64,000 nucleotides of DNA from Candidatus Nitrosocaldus schleperae (lineage in GTDB: Archaea; Thermoproteota; Nitrososphaeria; Nitrososphaerales; Nitrosocaldaceae). The translations under genes and the position numbers were made by a program. The notes under the pieces are model-generated. The model had not been told where the DNA came from and made no database searches. It saw nothing but the letters and a program-made list of their open reading frames with translations. Location of the stretch: the NCBI GenBank assembly GCA_013538805.1, contig JABXGR010000005.1:1-64000 (forward strand). The letters run 5' to 3'. Shown here piece by piece: positions 53,670 to 59,124 of this stretch. Position 1 is the stretch's first letter, and each line of letters begins with the position of its first letter.

Positions 53670-54247
53670 ATGTCAATAGATGATGTTGATAGAAGGTTGA
53701 TCCTCCTACTTATGCAGGATGGTAGGCAATCCTTCAGAAGGTTGGCAAGGAGTTTAGGTGTGAGTACACCAACAGCAAAGGCAAGGTACGATAGGCTTGT
53801 AAGGCTTGGGCTAATAAAGAGGGTATCTGCCATAATAGATACCTCTATGCTCAACAGTGTTAATGCTCTTCTATACATAAGGCAAACGATGTACAGGATG
53901 CAATAGCAAGGATGAAGGAGATGGAGGAGATAAACTCCATACTCCTAACATCTGGGGATACAAATGTAGTTATTAAAGCAACTCTAGATAGTATAGAATC
54001 TCTAGCAGGGCTGATGGCAAAGTTATCAATCATCCCTAATCTACAGATAATCTCAAGCCAGATAGTAACTAAGGTTATCAAGGATGAGCAGATAATCCCT
54101 AGGTTAGCAGGTGTAAAGTTGGTCTGCCATTACTGCAATGGCAGCATTACAGGAGAGCCCATAGTGCTTGATGGTATACACTACTTCTGCTGCACATCAT
54201 GCCTTAGGTTATTCAGTTCAGAGAGAGGCATAGCAACGCCCCATTAA
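53670..54247 (+). pseudogene. Lrp-type regulator with TRASH metal-binding domain, frameshifted
   Basis: Two adjacent frames make one gene: the first (53670-53906) encodes an AsnC-type winged helix (DVDRRLILLLMQDGRQSFRRLARSLGV), the second (53912-54247 and its upstream codons) the rest plus a TRASH domain CHYCNG and FCCTSC (two CxxC-type pairs). The natural protein would run LLYI, then ANDVQDAIARMKEMEEI, if one base were added near 53879-53882. The full product would be about 192 residues. TRASH-domain regulators of this type (CopT in Sulfolobus) sense copper and flank copA, as here. As it stands, the frameshift removes the metal domain from the DNA-binding part: error, true loss or programmed frameshift. 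Confidence 0.75.
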
Positions 54248-54268
54248 CTGCTGGATTAGACAATTATA

Positions 54269-54341
54269 TTTACAACTGTCAACCAATCTTGCATAAAACC
54301 TGCTGTATGATAACGGATGCATTTAATTACAAATACTGTAA
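54269..54341. promoter_or_regulatory. Two inverted repeats upstream of copA
   Basis: TTTACA-AC-TGTCAA at 54269-54282 (one mismatch between arms) and TTACA-N5-TGTAA at 54327-54341 (perfect five-base arms) lie upstream of the copA start. The second overlaps a TATA-like ATTTAATTA, about 26 bases before ATG 54352. Their TACA/TGTA cores recall bacterial cop boxes, but archaeal copper operators differ, so the function is inferred. Confidence 0.4.
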
Positions 54342-54351
54342 ATATTATACC

Positions 54352-56838
54352 ATGAGCAAGGATGATGCTGGTAGAAGCATAAACATGCCTGGTAGAAGCA
54401 AGAGGGTAGTGCTAAGTATAGGGGGCATGCACTGTGCAGGTTGCACAAGAGCCATACAAGGCTACCTAATGGATATGGATGGTATCAAGGGCTGTGATGT
54501 TAACCTAGCAACTGAGAAGGCTGTTATAGAGTATGATCCAGCAGTGATAAACCTAAGGAGGATAGAGCAGGCAATAGAGGAGGTTGGCTATAAGGTTGTG
54601 TATGAGAAGGTTAGCCTCCATCTTAGCATGCTTACAGATGTTAGTGATGCTGTTAGGCTTGAGAGCATACTTAAGGGTATTGAAGGGATAAGGGATGCAT
54701 CTGTAAACCATGTTGGTTCAAGGGTTATGCTAGAGTACAACCCATCACTCATCTCTATAGCAGAGGTTAAGGCAATTCTGGATAAGCATGGGTACAAGGT
54801 TGTAAGCGAGGATGTCTACTCTGCTGAGGATGAGGATGCAAGAGCATTGAGGAGGCTCTTCCTTATAGGTTTAGCATTAACAGTGCCAGTGGTGCTCTAC
54901 AGTTACCCAGAGTACATCAGCCTACCACTTACTGGTACAAGCATCACAGCGTATATCATGCTTATACTAGCAGGTACGGTACAGTTCCTAGTTGGGAGGA
55001 GGTTCTACGTTGGAGCATATAGGATAGCAAGGATAGGCTCTGCAAATATGGATACTCTAGTTGCAGTAGGCACAACAGCAGCCTACATATTCAGTGTGAT
55101 TAACACTGTACCAGAGCCATCATGGCACTCAATCTACTACGATGTATCCTCTGTTGTAATAACCTTCATCATACTAGGCAAGTACCTTGAGAGTAAGAGT
55201 AAGAGTAAGGCATCATCCCTGATAAGGAAGATGCTTGAACTACAACCAAAGAAGGCAAGGGTTGTTAAGGATGGGGATGGAGGGGTAGAGGAAGATGTGC
55301 CTGTCGAGTCTATAAGGGAAGGGGATGTTCTTCTTGTCCATCCCGGTGAGAAGATACCAGTAGATGGTATCATCATCAAGGGCTACTCTGCAGTTGATGA
55401 GGCTATGGTAACTGGGGAGTCAATGCCTATTAGCAAGGGCCCAGGGGATGAGGTTATAGGAGGAAGTATAAACAGGGAGGGTTCACTACTTATAAAGGCT
55501 ACAAGGGTTGGGAGCGATACATTCCTTGCACAGGTTATAAGGCTTGTTGAGGATGCGATGGGTAGCAAGCCACCAGTACAGATGCTTGTTGATAAGGTTG
55601 CTGGCTACTTTGCATTCATAGTCATCAGCATAGCAGTTGGAACCTTCCTTGCATGGTATGCACTAGCAGGTGTTGTGGAGCAAGCACTCATACCTGCTGT
55701 TGCTGTGCTTGTTGTTGCATGCCCATGTGCACTAGGACTAGCAACCCCAACAGCTATAATGGTTGGGATGGGCAAGGGTGCACAACATGGCATAATATTC
55801 AAGAATGGCAAGGCTCTGGAGATGCTAAGCAAGGTGGATGTTGTAGTATTTGATAAGACTGGAACATTAACATATGGAAGACCAGTGGTTACAGATGTTA
55901 TACCCTTGAGTAGTGTAGTTATGGTTGATGACAAGGTTGATGGTAGTGGTGCTTATCTAAGGGATCTGCTTGAGGCTGCTGCATCAGTAGAGAGGAACTC
56001 AGAGCATCCATTGGCTAAAGCAATAGTTGAGAAGGCTAATAGCATGGGTATAATGCCTAAAGAGGTTGAGAACTTCAAGGCAATCCCTGGTAGGGGTGTA
56101 ATAGCAAGGTATAAGGGGAGAGAGATCATGGTAGGGAGCCCAAGGATGCTTGAGAGCATGGGCGTATCGATTGATAACTGCAGAGAGAAGATATCAAGCC
56201 TTCAGGATGAGGGGAAGAGTGTAGTGCTTGTATCTATTGATGGTAAGCCTTCTGGCATAATAGCGTTTATGGATGAGCCTAGGCAGAGCAGCATTGATGC
56301 TATAAGGATGCTCAAGAGCATGGGTGTAGATGTTGTTATGCTAACTGGGGATAATAGGAGGAGTGCAGATGCTGTTGCAAGAGCATTAGGGATAGAGCAT
56401 GTACTTGCAGAGGTTATGCCAGATGGCAAGATAGATGCGATAAGGATGATACAGGCTAAGGGTAAGGGTGAAGGTAAGGGCAAGAGGGTAGCAATGGTTG
56501 GGGATGGTATAAATGATGCCCCTGCACTTATGCAGGCAGATGTAGGCATTGCCATGGGTAATGGTACAGATATTGCTATAGAGGCTGGGGATGTTATACT
56601 TGTAAGGGATGATCCAATGGAGGTAGCAACAGCAGTAGAGTTGAGTAGGAAGGTGATGAGCAAGATAAGGCAGAACCTAATCTATGCGTTCATGTACAAT
56701 GTAGCACTCATACCAGTTGCTGCCCTTGGCTTGCTCTACCCAGCACTTGCAGGGCTTGCCATGGCTGCAAGTTCAGTATCTGTAACGATGAGTTCGCTCT
56801 TGATGAGGAGATGGTTGCCAAAGAGTAGGAGGAGATGA
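54352..56838 (+). CDS. copA: Copper-exporting P-type ATPase (CopA type)
   Basis: A P1B ATPase of about 828 residues that pumps Cu(I) out of the cytoplasm. The N-terminus has two heavy-metal domains; the first has GGMHCAGC (Cys28 and Cys31), the second lacks CxxC. The membrane CPC motif is at about residue 457, the phosphorylation site DKTGTLT at about 500, then EHPLAKAI (HP motif) and GDGINDAPALMQADVGIAM. C-terminal helices hold AASSVSVTMSS, matching the Cu(I) subgroup. I place the start at ATG 54352, about 26 bases after a TATA-like box; an upstream ATG at 54289 would add 21 residues without family match. The TRASH-type regulator precedes it. Confidence 0.95.
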   Translation: MSKDDAGRSINMPGRSKRVVLSIGGMHCAGCTRAIQGYLMDMDGIKGCDVNLATEKAVIEYDPAVINLRRIEQAIEEVGYKVVYEKVSLHLSMLTDVSDAVRLESILKGIEGIRDASVNHVGSRVMLEYNPSLISIAEVKAILDKHGYKVVSEDVYSAEDEDARALRRLFLIGLALTVPVVLYSYPEYISLPLTGTSITAYIMLILAGTVQFLVGRRFYVGAYRIARIGSANMDTLVAVGTTAAYIFSVINTVPEPSWHSIYYDVSSVVITFIILGKYLESKSKSKASSLIRKMLELQPKKARVVKDGDGGVEEDVPVESIREGDVLLVHPGEKIPVDGIIIKGYSAVDEAMVTGESMPISKGPGDEVIGGSINREGSLLIKATRVGSDTFLAQVIRLVEDAMGSKPPVQMLVDKVAGYFAFIVISIAVGTFLAWYALAGVVEQALIPAVAVLVVACPCALGLATPTAIMVGMGKGAQHGIIFKNGKALEMLSKVDVVVFDKTGTLTYGRPVVTDVIPLSSVVMVDDKVDGSGAYLRDLLEAAASVERNSEHPLAKAIVEKANSMGIMPKEVENFKAIPGRGVIARYKGREIMVGSPRMLESMGVSIDNCREKISSLQDEGKSVVLVSIDGKPSGIIAFMDEPRQSSIDAIRMLKSMGVDVVMLTGDNRRSADAVARALGIEHVLAEVMPDGKIDAIRMIQAKGKGEGKGKRVAMVGDGINDAPALMQADVGIAMGNGTDIAIEAGDVILVRDDPMEVATAVELSRKVMSKIRQNLIYAFMYNVALIPVAALGLLYPALAGLAMAASSVSVTMSSLLMRRWLPKSRRR

Positions 56839-56878: not shown

Positions 56879-57895
56879 TTAGAGCCTAGTGAACCTTATA
56901 CGCAGTATCCCGTTAATGTACTGCACAGACTCTGGCTGCTCATTAACACTAGTCCTTAGTATTGCTCTACCTGAATACCTCCTATATCCATCCTCCGATA
57001 TAGCATCTATGCTTACTATGCTGTTATCCATAACGCTTATTGAGATTGTACGCTCATCCACTCCAGGCATCTCAGCAAGTAACTCAACATACCTGTTTGT
57101 AACTATACCCTCTATCCTCAATGGTCTAAGTATCTGCTCTCTAGCATGATACCTCTCATACTCGCCCTGATGGCCTATGCTTGGCATCCTTGCCCTTATA
57201 CTTGCACCTATCCTTGCTATTACAAACCTATATGCAAAGCCAAATACAAGTCCAGCAACAAATCCTCCTATATGCGCTAGGTATGCTACCCCTCCACCAG
57301 CACCAAATGCTGCTGCTATCAACTGGTATATGAACCATAGGAAGAGGTATGCAAATGCAGGTATCCTTGTTGTTGTTATTAAGAAGAAGAATACAAGTGT
57401 TACAACCCTAGCATGAGGGAATATGATCATGTATGCTCCTAGCACTCCAGATATTGCGCCAGAGGCACCAACTGCAGGGATTAGCATCTGCTCCCCTCCA
57501 ACACCAATTGCCCATGCTAGATGTGCCATTGCAGCAGCAAAACCCCAGAATAGGTAGCATGCAAGGTACTTTACATGCCCAAACCTATCCTCTACATTAT
57601 CCCCAAATATCCAGAGGAAGAGCATGTTGCCAAGTATATGCATTATACTCCCATGCATGAACATAGATGTTAGTATGGATATGCCAGCATCAATGTACTG
57701 AGCGTTGCTAACATCATCAAGGAACCTTGCTGGTACAAACCCATGGTTGAGGAAGAGTGTTATGGTTGCTCTTTGATCCATGAAGAGCCTTGTTACAATA
57801 ACCTCCCATATGAATACGAGGAAGTTAACTGCTATAAGTGCGTAGTTAACGTAAGGTCTAGTTGTCCTAGGGTTCTCATCGTAAAGTGGGAACAT
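56879..57895 (-). CDS. Rhomboid intramembrane protease fused to an alpha-crystallin-like domain
   Basis: This 338-residue protein has a rhomboid domain in residues about 15-230: six or more membrane helices, catalytic Ser145 in VGASGAISG, His208 in AHIGGFVAG, and the loop segment ALIAVNFLVFIWEV and HGSIMHILGNMLFLWIFGDNVED. After a 30-residue basic linker, residues about 265-338 read VTNRYVELLAEMPGVDERTISISVMDNSIV in part and end in INGILRIRFTRL; this matches the small heat-shock protein (Hsp20) alpha-crystallin fold: AEMPGV and the NGxLxIR edge strand. The fusion would put a chaperone-like domain beside the membrane protease. Such a pairing is not one I know as established. Convergent with copA, 40 bases apart. 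Confidence 0.9.
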   Translation of the reverse strand: MFPLYDENPRTTRPYVNYALIAVNFLVFIWEVIVTRLFMDQRATITLFLNHGFVPARFLDDVSNAQYIDAGISILTSMFMHGSIMHILGNMLFLWIFGDNVEDRFGHVKYLACYLFWGFAAAMAHLAWAIGVGGEQMLIPAVGASGAISGVLGAYMIIFPHARVVTLVFFFLITTTRIPAFAYLFLWFIYQLIAAAFGAGGGVAYLAHIGGFVAGLVFGFAYRFVIARIGASIRARMPSIGHQGEYERYHAREQILRPLRIEGIVTNRYVELLAEMPGVDERTISISVMDNSIVSIDAISEDGYRRYSGRAILRTSVNEQPESVQYINGILRIRFTRL

Positions 57896-57979: not shown

Positions 57980-58159
57980 ATGCCTCTAGTAACCATATCC
58001 CTATGGCCTGGAAGGACACAGCAACAGAAGGAAGAACTAGCAAAGGCTATAACAGATGCAATAGTCAAGGTTCTAGGTAGCAAGAAGGAGCATGTGATAA
58101 TAGTCTTTCAGGATACGCCTAAAGAGAACTGGTACGTTGCAGGGAATCTATTGACATGA
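57980..58159 (+). CDS. 4-oxalocrotonate tautomerase family protein
   Basis: This 59-residue protein (MPLVTISLWPGRTQQQKEEL at the start) has the Pro directly after Met that is the catalytic base of the 4-OT family, and an Arg at residue 12 that fits the substrate-binding site. Length matches the short subgroup, which assembles into hexamers. It lies in a larger open frame; the ATG at 57980 is the only start that gives the catalytic Pro. The substrate is not known. Confidence 0.82.
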   Translation: MPLVTISLWPGRTQQQKEELAKAITDAIVKVLGSKKEHVIIVFQDTPKENWYVAGNLLT

Positions 58160-58254
58160 TAAATGTGTATTAGCAGAAGATATCATATGCTATAACAAGC
58201 AATAAAGTTAACAATCAAATATCATCTATCTATTTATTTAGTTACCAACCAACA

Positions 58255-59124
58255 ATGGCTATGGATGGTGATGATTGTGAAGAAGGAGGAGGGAAGAGGA
58301 GAGTAGCTGTTATACAGTTCAGATCATCTGTAAGCAAGGAGGAGAATCTAGAGAAGGTTCTTCACTACATAGATGAGGCAAGGAGAGAGGGTGCATCCCT
58401 TGTAGCCTTTCCAGAGTTCACCATGGCTTACTCGCCTGAGGAGCAGAGTGCAGATACCCTCTACAATATAGCAGAGGGCATAGATGGTAACTTTGTATCA
58501 AGCATAAGGGAGAGGGCTAGGATAGGTAGAGTTGATGTTGTAGTAACTATGTATGAGAAGGGCTTACATACCAATAAGGTATATGATACTGCCCTGCTCA
58601 TAGATAGCAAAGGCATTATAAGATCGGTCTACAGGAAGGTACACCTGTACGATGCCCTTGGCTTCAAGGAGTCAGCAAAGCTTCTAGCAGGGGATGAGAT
58701 AGCATCGCCTGTAGATGCACCTATCGGCAGGTTAGGCATGATGATATGCTACGATGTTAGGTTCCCAGAGATGTCAAGGATACTTGCACTCCTTGGTGCA
58801 GAAGTACTCATCATACCCTCAGCCTGGGTTCAAGGTAGGATGAAGTATGAGCATTGGCAGACTATGCTTAGGGCAAGGGCCATAGAGAATGGATGCTATG
58901 TTATTGCTCCAGATCAAGTAGGCAACATATACATAGGGCATAGCATGGCTATCGATCCCTTTGGAGGTATACTTCTGGATATGGGTGAGGGAGATGAAGG
59001 GCTTGGCATTGTTGATGTAGATGTAAAGCATGTGTATGAGGTTAGGAGTAGGCTACCACTGCTAAGGAACAGAAGGGTTGATGTGTATGCTAGATATGCA
59101 GATACAACGCATATGTATTTATGA
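58255..59124 (+). CDS. Carbon-nitrogen hydrolase (nitrilase superfamily)
   Basis: This 289-residue enzyme has the Glu-Lys-Cys triad of the nitrilase superfamily: Glu54 in AFPEFTM, Lys128 in YRKVHLYD and Cys165 in MICYDVRFPEM. The layout resembles Nit1/omega-amidase-like amidases. The substrate is uncertain. A TATA-like ATCTATTTATTTAG lies about 25 bases upstream, consistent with a leaderless mRNA. The first 15 residues are an unusual acidic/Gly stretch (DGDDCEEGGGK). Confidence 0.9.
   Translation: MAMDGDDCEEGGGKRRVAVIQFRSSVSKEENLEKVLHYIDEARREGASLVAFPEFTMAYSPEEQSADTLYNIAEGIDGNFVSSIRERARIGRVDVVVTMYEKGLHTNKVYDTALLIDSKGIIRSVYRKVHLYDALGFKESAKLLAGDEIASPVDAPIGRLGMMICYDVRFPEMSRILALLGAEVLIIPSAWVQGRMKYEHWQTMLRARAIENGCYVIAPDQVGNIYIGHSMAIDPFGGILLDMGEGDEGLGIVDVDVKHVYEVRSRLPLLRNRRVDVYARYADTTHMYL

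Follow-up and report, generated by a model that had tools for sequence, protein, structure and literature searches.

A rhomboid protease fused to an alpha-crystallin (Hsp20) domain in Candidatus Nitrosocaldus schleperae and related Nitrososphaeria

The analyzed window, a stretch of 64,000 nucleotides from Candidatus Nitrosocaldus schleperae, contains a complete open reading frame on the minus strand, which starts with ATG at 57895, ends with the stop codon TAA at 56879–56881 and encodes a protein of 338 amino acids, exactly where the initial annotation had placed it. The predicted product comprises (i) a rhomboid protease core, (ii) a basic linker and (iii) a C-terminal alpha-crystallin (Hsp20) domain (Table 1). 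Orthologues with identical layout (60–91 % identity) are encoded in seven related genomes of the same family (Nitrosocaldaceae, f1) and of one sister family (f2). The gene stands alone in the window, with a convergent copA gene at a distance of 40 bp on one side and a divergently oriented tautomerase gene on the other; CopA also adjoins it in other g1 genomes. The CopA-type copper P-type ATPase is itself adjoined by a small AsnC/TRASH-domain protein, the two (53912–56838, plus strand) forming an ordinary copper-homeostasis pair.

Table 1. Coordinates of the fusion gene, its domains and the residues and motifs discussed in the text
Feature	Residues	Position in window	Strand	Evidence
Fusion gene, rhomboid protease and alpha-crystallin (Hsp20) domain	338 aa	56879..57895	-	Complete ORF
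Rhomboid protease core, six predicted TM helices	1-226	57218..57895	-	Pfam Rhomboid, AlphaFold, Foldseek match to GlpG
Basic linker, predicted cytosolic	227-254	57134..57217	-	K/R excess, low pLDDT, weak conservation
Alpha-crystallin (Hsp20) domain	255-338	56882..57133	-	NF041800, AlphaFold, Foldseek, dN/dS
Codon of His86, equivalent of GlpG His150 (oxyanion region)	86	57638..57640	-	Invariant in A1 and A2; aligned with GlpG segment LMHILFN
Codon of Asn90, equivalent of GlpG Asn154	90	57626..57628	-	Invariant in A1 and A2; GlpG alignment
Codon of catalytic Ser145, motif GASG	145	57461..57463	-	Invariant in A1 and A2
Codon of catalytic His208, motif AHIGGF	208	57272..57274	-	Invariant in A1, nearly invariant in A2
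AEMPGVDERTI, end of beta-3 and next turn	274-284	57044..57076	-	Sequence, PDB match, AlphaFold
NGILRIRF, beta-9 edge strand	328-335	56891..56914	-	Sequence, AlphaFold

The N-terminal part is matched by the Pfam Rhomboid profile (PF01694) at residues 73–222 (E = 3.4e-29), modelled by AlphaFold with a pLDDT mostly above 90 and aligned by Foldseek with E. coli GlpG. It displays the features of the S54 family, i.e., a core with six predicted transmembrane helices, the Ser-His dyad (GxSG in TM4, His in TM6) and the His and Asn of the oxyanion region in TM2. Ser145 and His208, already recognized when the sequence was first read, are both present, and their conservation as well as that of His86 and Asn90 was assessed in two alignments (A1 and A2) covering 11 fused orthologues and 29 diverse relatives. 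GlpG-type rhomboids require these four residues for catalysis. The core, with its catalytic residues intact, represents an intact and putatively active intramembrane serine protease. Core fold, dyad, His/Asn pair and the six predicted helices are shared with the short bacterial and archaeal rhomboids starting with MFPL-D-x-N (PF01694, MEROPS S54; GlpG as structural reference). However, most unfused relatives end a few tens of residues past TM6, whereas the fusion adds an alpha-crystallin domain of 80 residues. The genome also encodes a second, unfused rhomboid of 188 amino acids.

The tail had initially been assigned to the Hsp20 family from residue 265 onwards; its identity is upheld, but the domain begins earlier, at about residue 255 with strand beta-2. 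The NCBIfam profile for archaeal Hsp20 (NF041800) matches residues 250–337 (E = 8.5e-11 with the full protein, 1.5e-11 with the tail alone), although Pfam HSP20 remains below its cut-off with both the whole protein and the tail, where only a weak ArsA_HSP20 match appears. The fusion scores 41.7 bits and thereby misses the 140-bit whole-protein cut-off of NF041800, since the tail comprises no more than the alpha-crystallin part; the match starts at profile position 66–79 of 162. A whole-genome search with this profile, i.e., with a query independent of the fusion protein, recovered the tail both in this genome and in related ones (E about 1e-11 to 1e-14), and the sole weighty match in a sequence search of the PDB was 4rzk, a member of the Hsp20 family (E = 0.005).

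Structure prediction likewise yields an alpha-crystallin fold at high confidence. The AlphaFold model of the full chain, built from an alignment of 29 sequences with the tail region covered by four, has a mean pLDDT of 90, falling to about 50 at the linker, and places tail strands at residues 255–258, 261–265, 269–275, 285–289, 293–300, 305–312, 323–327 and 330–337. By our own assignment on this model, their order would correspond to beta-2 to beta-5 and beta-7 to beta-9, with a short loop replacing beta-6. In Foldseek, the first match of the full model is the alpha-crystallin domain of Sulfolobus solfataricus Hsp20.1 (4rzk; E = 3.7e-6, rmsd 1.4), with GlpG aligning to the other half; the tail modelled alone (pLDDT 93.8) again retrieves 4rzk as best match (TM 0.84–0.87). 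Hence, the fold that defines small heat shock proteins (sHsps) is present according to both NF041800 and Foldseek, and the two motifs on which the first assignment relied are located within it (Table 1).

Residues 223–256 carry 6 K/R versus 3 D/E. Since this basic segment follows six predicted transmembrane helices, the positive-inside rule would place the tail in the cytosol, alongside other sHsps. Among five species of the same genus, dN/dS amounts to 0.07–0.12 for the core, 0.05–0.16 for the alpha-crystallin domain and 0.24–0.66 for the linker; selection thus constrains the tail about as strongly as the enzyme, and the linker less. One may speculate that the tail acts as a regulatory gate on the protease, e.g., via reversible dimerization or a temperature-dependent change, comparable to the metal response of Bacillus subtilis YqgP. 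Such a role would have a precedent in the cytosolic domain of YqgP (PMC7231995), could draw on the unusual dimer attributed to the Hsp20.1-type fold (Liu et al. 2015, as cited in PMC9133787), and would agree with the location of copA, itself adjoined by the TRASH-domain protein, beside the gene in the window and other g1 genomes. Tight allosteric coupling is disfavoured by the weakly conserved linker, and we consider gating rather improbable.

The same two-domain order recurs widely among Nitrososphaeria. A survey of 400 genomes from the order to which the window belongs found full-length fusions in six genomes of f1, two of f2 and about 60 of the Nitrososphaeraceae (f7, including locus L031 of Nitrososphaera sp., genome G088), together about 68 genomes (clade A). 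In two further f7 genomes the matches stop far short; these are fragmented assemblies with a completeness of 73 % and 59 %. The rhomboid is present and the tail absent in Nitrosotalea and marine group I (Nitrosopumilaceae, f9), and among the best 80 relatives across all prokaryotes only three loci, all from Nitrososphaerales, possess the tail. A phylum-wide search revealed further fusions in about two dozen genomes of families f27, f37, f40, f50, f68 and f80 (clade B; loci L185–L197 and L205–L222), which belong to another order of the same phylum. Their tails match NF041800 more strongly (E = 4e-16 to 8e-22) than that of the window protein. The Pfam HSP20 profile exceeds its cut-off in just one of seven clade B fusions, so that the architecture is easily missed. 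No published report of a rhomboid-Hsp20 fusion was found in openly licensed PMC papers, and the present one is likely the first description of a rhomboid-alpha-crystallin fusion.

The subthreshold Pfam HSP20 score of the window protein might suggest that the join is an artefact of prediction or assembly, or that a basic, beta-rich tail resembles Hsp20 by chance. This explanation, to which we attach a negligible probability, is contradicted by the agreement of profile, fold and selection, and is refuted by the continuous reading frame in the approximately 68 independent clade A genomes and about two dozen clade B genomes. The rhomboid-Hsp20 architecture initially proposed, backed by profile, predicted structure, homologues and selection, is thus confirmed as a real two-domain product.

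A maximum likelihood tree built from the rhomboid cores resolves the fusions into two distinct clades (support 99/93 for clade A, 91/85 for clade B), each standing beside unfused relatives. Joining them in one clade, as a single fusion event without losses would demand, is rejected on this tree (AU test, p = 0.0019), which therefore implies either two gains or one gain followed by several losses. In a tree of the short alpha-crystallin domains, the tails of both clades are not joined with support in the careful version, and are joined with a support of 47 when long rows are dropped; since this tree cannot decide, two independent fusions are not taken as proven. The occurrence in all three families of clade A and separately in clade B points to repeated retention or gain of this domain pair.

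Tails of Nitrososphaeraceae are strongly diverged, with NF041800 E values ranging from 1e-5 to no match. This divergence would suit a reading in which the tail, as a degenerate alpha-crystallin or p23/CS-like domain, only acts as adaptor for one partner or stabilizes the membrane protein and has no chaperone role; the Foldseek matches to the CS/p23-type domains of Sgt1 and USP19 would suit it as well. These matches score below Hsp20.1, which is the best match by sequence as well as structure, i.e., the best match is not a CS domain; moreover, the tail is under purifying selection within the window's genus and has been kept in two clades, which argues against this reading. We regard such an adaptor as quite improbable, while a loss of generic chaperone function is possible in Nitrososphaeraceae in view of the strong sequence drift.

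The genomic context differs between the families. Among 20 loci of Nitrososphaeraceae (L255–L274), the next gene encodes the thermosome in eight (Pfam Cpn60_TCP1, E = 8e-191) and Rieske-cytochrome b in nine, i.e., one or the other in 17 of 20; this downstream gene is on the same strand as the fusion and about 80–240 bp away. A cupredoxin gene follows in one tested locus. This arrangement is suggestive in the light of published work: bacterial rhomboids clear orphan subunits of respiratory complexes by cleavage and keep these from aggregating (PMC7232013), PARL affects complex III via TTC19 (PMC7232013), and archaeal sHsps, which act as dimers and bind membranes, pass clients to Hsp60 (PMC9133787). 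The unfused rhomboid gene of Nitrosopumilaceae at L281 likewise precedes a thermosome gene, and the link is thus not dependent on the tail. As a universal feature the thermosome link was rejected, since it occurs in only 8 of 20 Nitrososphaeraceae loci, is absent from the window's family and, in one case, involves a rhomboid without the tail. A chaperone link was not found among the clade B neighbours either (M20 peptidase, aminotransferase, thymidylate kinase and a Zn-ribbon protein). In f1, f2 and f9, a nitrilase-family gene is located close to the rhomboid gene (57980–59124, plus strand, in the window; L275, L276, L278, L285 and L293 elsewhere), suggesting that fused and unfused rhomboids are positional orthologues.

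The tail resembles archaeal Hsp20 (NF041800; Sulfolobus Hsp20.1) in fold, in the short beta5-beta7 loop and in the absence of beta-6, but differs in being membrane-tethered and in missing two further sHsp parts. The N-terminal arm of sHsps, which often binds clients, is replaced by the protease and a short linker. The C-terminal extension with I-x-I/V is likewise absent: a terminal [IVL]x[IVL] motif is found in none of 24 fused proteins, but in 71 of the 79 stand-alone archaeal sHsps and relatives that the same genome set supplied, and these fused proteins end at most about 16 residues past beta-9 (3 residues in the window protein). Since this motif is important for the formation of sHsp oligomers (PMC9133787), the fused domain represents a tethered alpha-crystallin module rather than a complete sHsp, and holdase function should not be assumed outright for a tail lacking both the N-terminal arm and the IXI anchor.

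A further protein, of 157 amino acids, with two hydrophobic, probably transmembrane segments and an alpha-crystallin domain is encoded at L165:174-647 (G000:C8, about 241,070–241,550). It ends right past beta-9, lacks the IXI motif and gave no match in a Pfam search. Homologues (L167, L168, L175, L176) occur in f1, f2 and f9 and form a clade of their own in the alpha-crystallin-domain tree; judged by sequence, this family is probably a second membrane-tethered alpha-crystallin protein.

The missing motif opens an alternative function, with the tail serving as a docking module whose free beta4-beta8 groove takes up the IXI tails of free sHsps, or which pairs with their alpha-crystallin domains, and thereby recruits sHsp-client complexes or the thermosome pathway to the protease in the membrane. 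The same genomes indeed encode several free sHsps with a C-terminal I/V-x-I/V, hetero-complexes of Hsp20 and Hsp14 are known from Sulfolobus (PMC9133787), and the thermosome gene adjoins the fusion in the eight Nitrososphaeraceae loci. However, the IXI motif may have been lost merely as unneeded, and docking appears unlikely to us.

We give an even chance to the fusion being a membrane-protein quality-control protease, the cytosolic, tethered Hsp20.1-type tail of which catches unfolded segments. Independently of ATP, the tail would bind membrane proteins that are misfolded or unassembled, at cytosolic segments which are unfolded or present exposed hydrophobic stretches, the likeliest client class being orphan subunits of respiratory complexes. 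It may thereby prevent aggregation of the clients and concentrate them beside the protease, which would cut a transmembrane segment and render the fragments removable; those on the cytosolic side could be passed to free sHsps and the thermosome. Having lost the IXI tail, the domain would not be drawn into large sHsp oligomers, and its groove would stay unoccupied. That unfolded membrane substrates are held at the protease is plausible, as this fits the cytosolic topology proposed above and the gene context of the relatives; the lack of a thermosome or complex III neighbour in the window counts against a role in quality control.

Among known systems, YqgP likewise joins a rhomboid to a cytosolic domain by which the handling of substrates is modulated, and works with cell-wide quality control: the domain controls cleavage, and substrate is handed to FtsH (PMC7231995). 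Unlike in the fusion, this domain is N-terminal, metal-binding and of restriction-endonuclease-like fold, and the C-terminal TPR domain of YqgP is extracellular. Eukaryotic Derlins and iRhoms also employ the rhomboid fold to deal with misfolded membrane proteins, and Dfm1 is reported to have chaperone-like activity (PMC12615303). Derlins and iRhoms are catalytically inactive, whereas the fusion combines intact catalytic residues with an Hsp20-type domain.

The retention of the fusion in dozens of related species suggests that their cells hold damaged membrane proteins at the protease. Archaeal rhomboids have few known substrates to date. Tentatively, and with some doubt, archaea may on more than one occasion have welded an oligomerization-deficient alpha-crystallin domain to an intramembrane protease, creating a single-chain chaperone-protease that would capture unassembled respiratory-complex subunits at the membrane, with free sHsps and the thermosome receiving what is left of them, as an ATP-independent form of archaeal membrane-protein quality control. 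The alpha-crystallin domain is used here as a membrane-tethered module stripped of its assembly motif, a use which standard Pfam annotation of the protein hides. Protease and chaperone-type domain on one chain pose a directly testable question on membrane-protein quality control, and the presence of the gene in Nitrososphaeraceae, including cultured species, mostly beside complex III or thermosome genes, makes experiments feasible.
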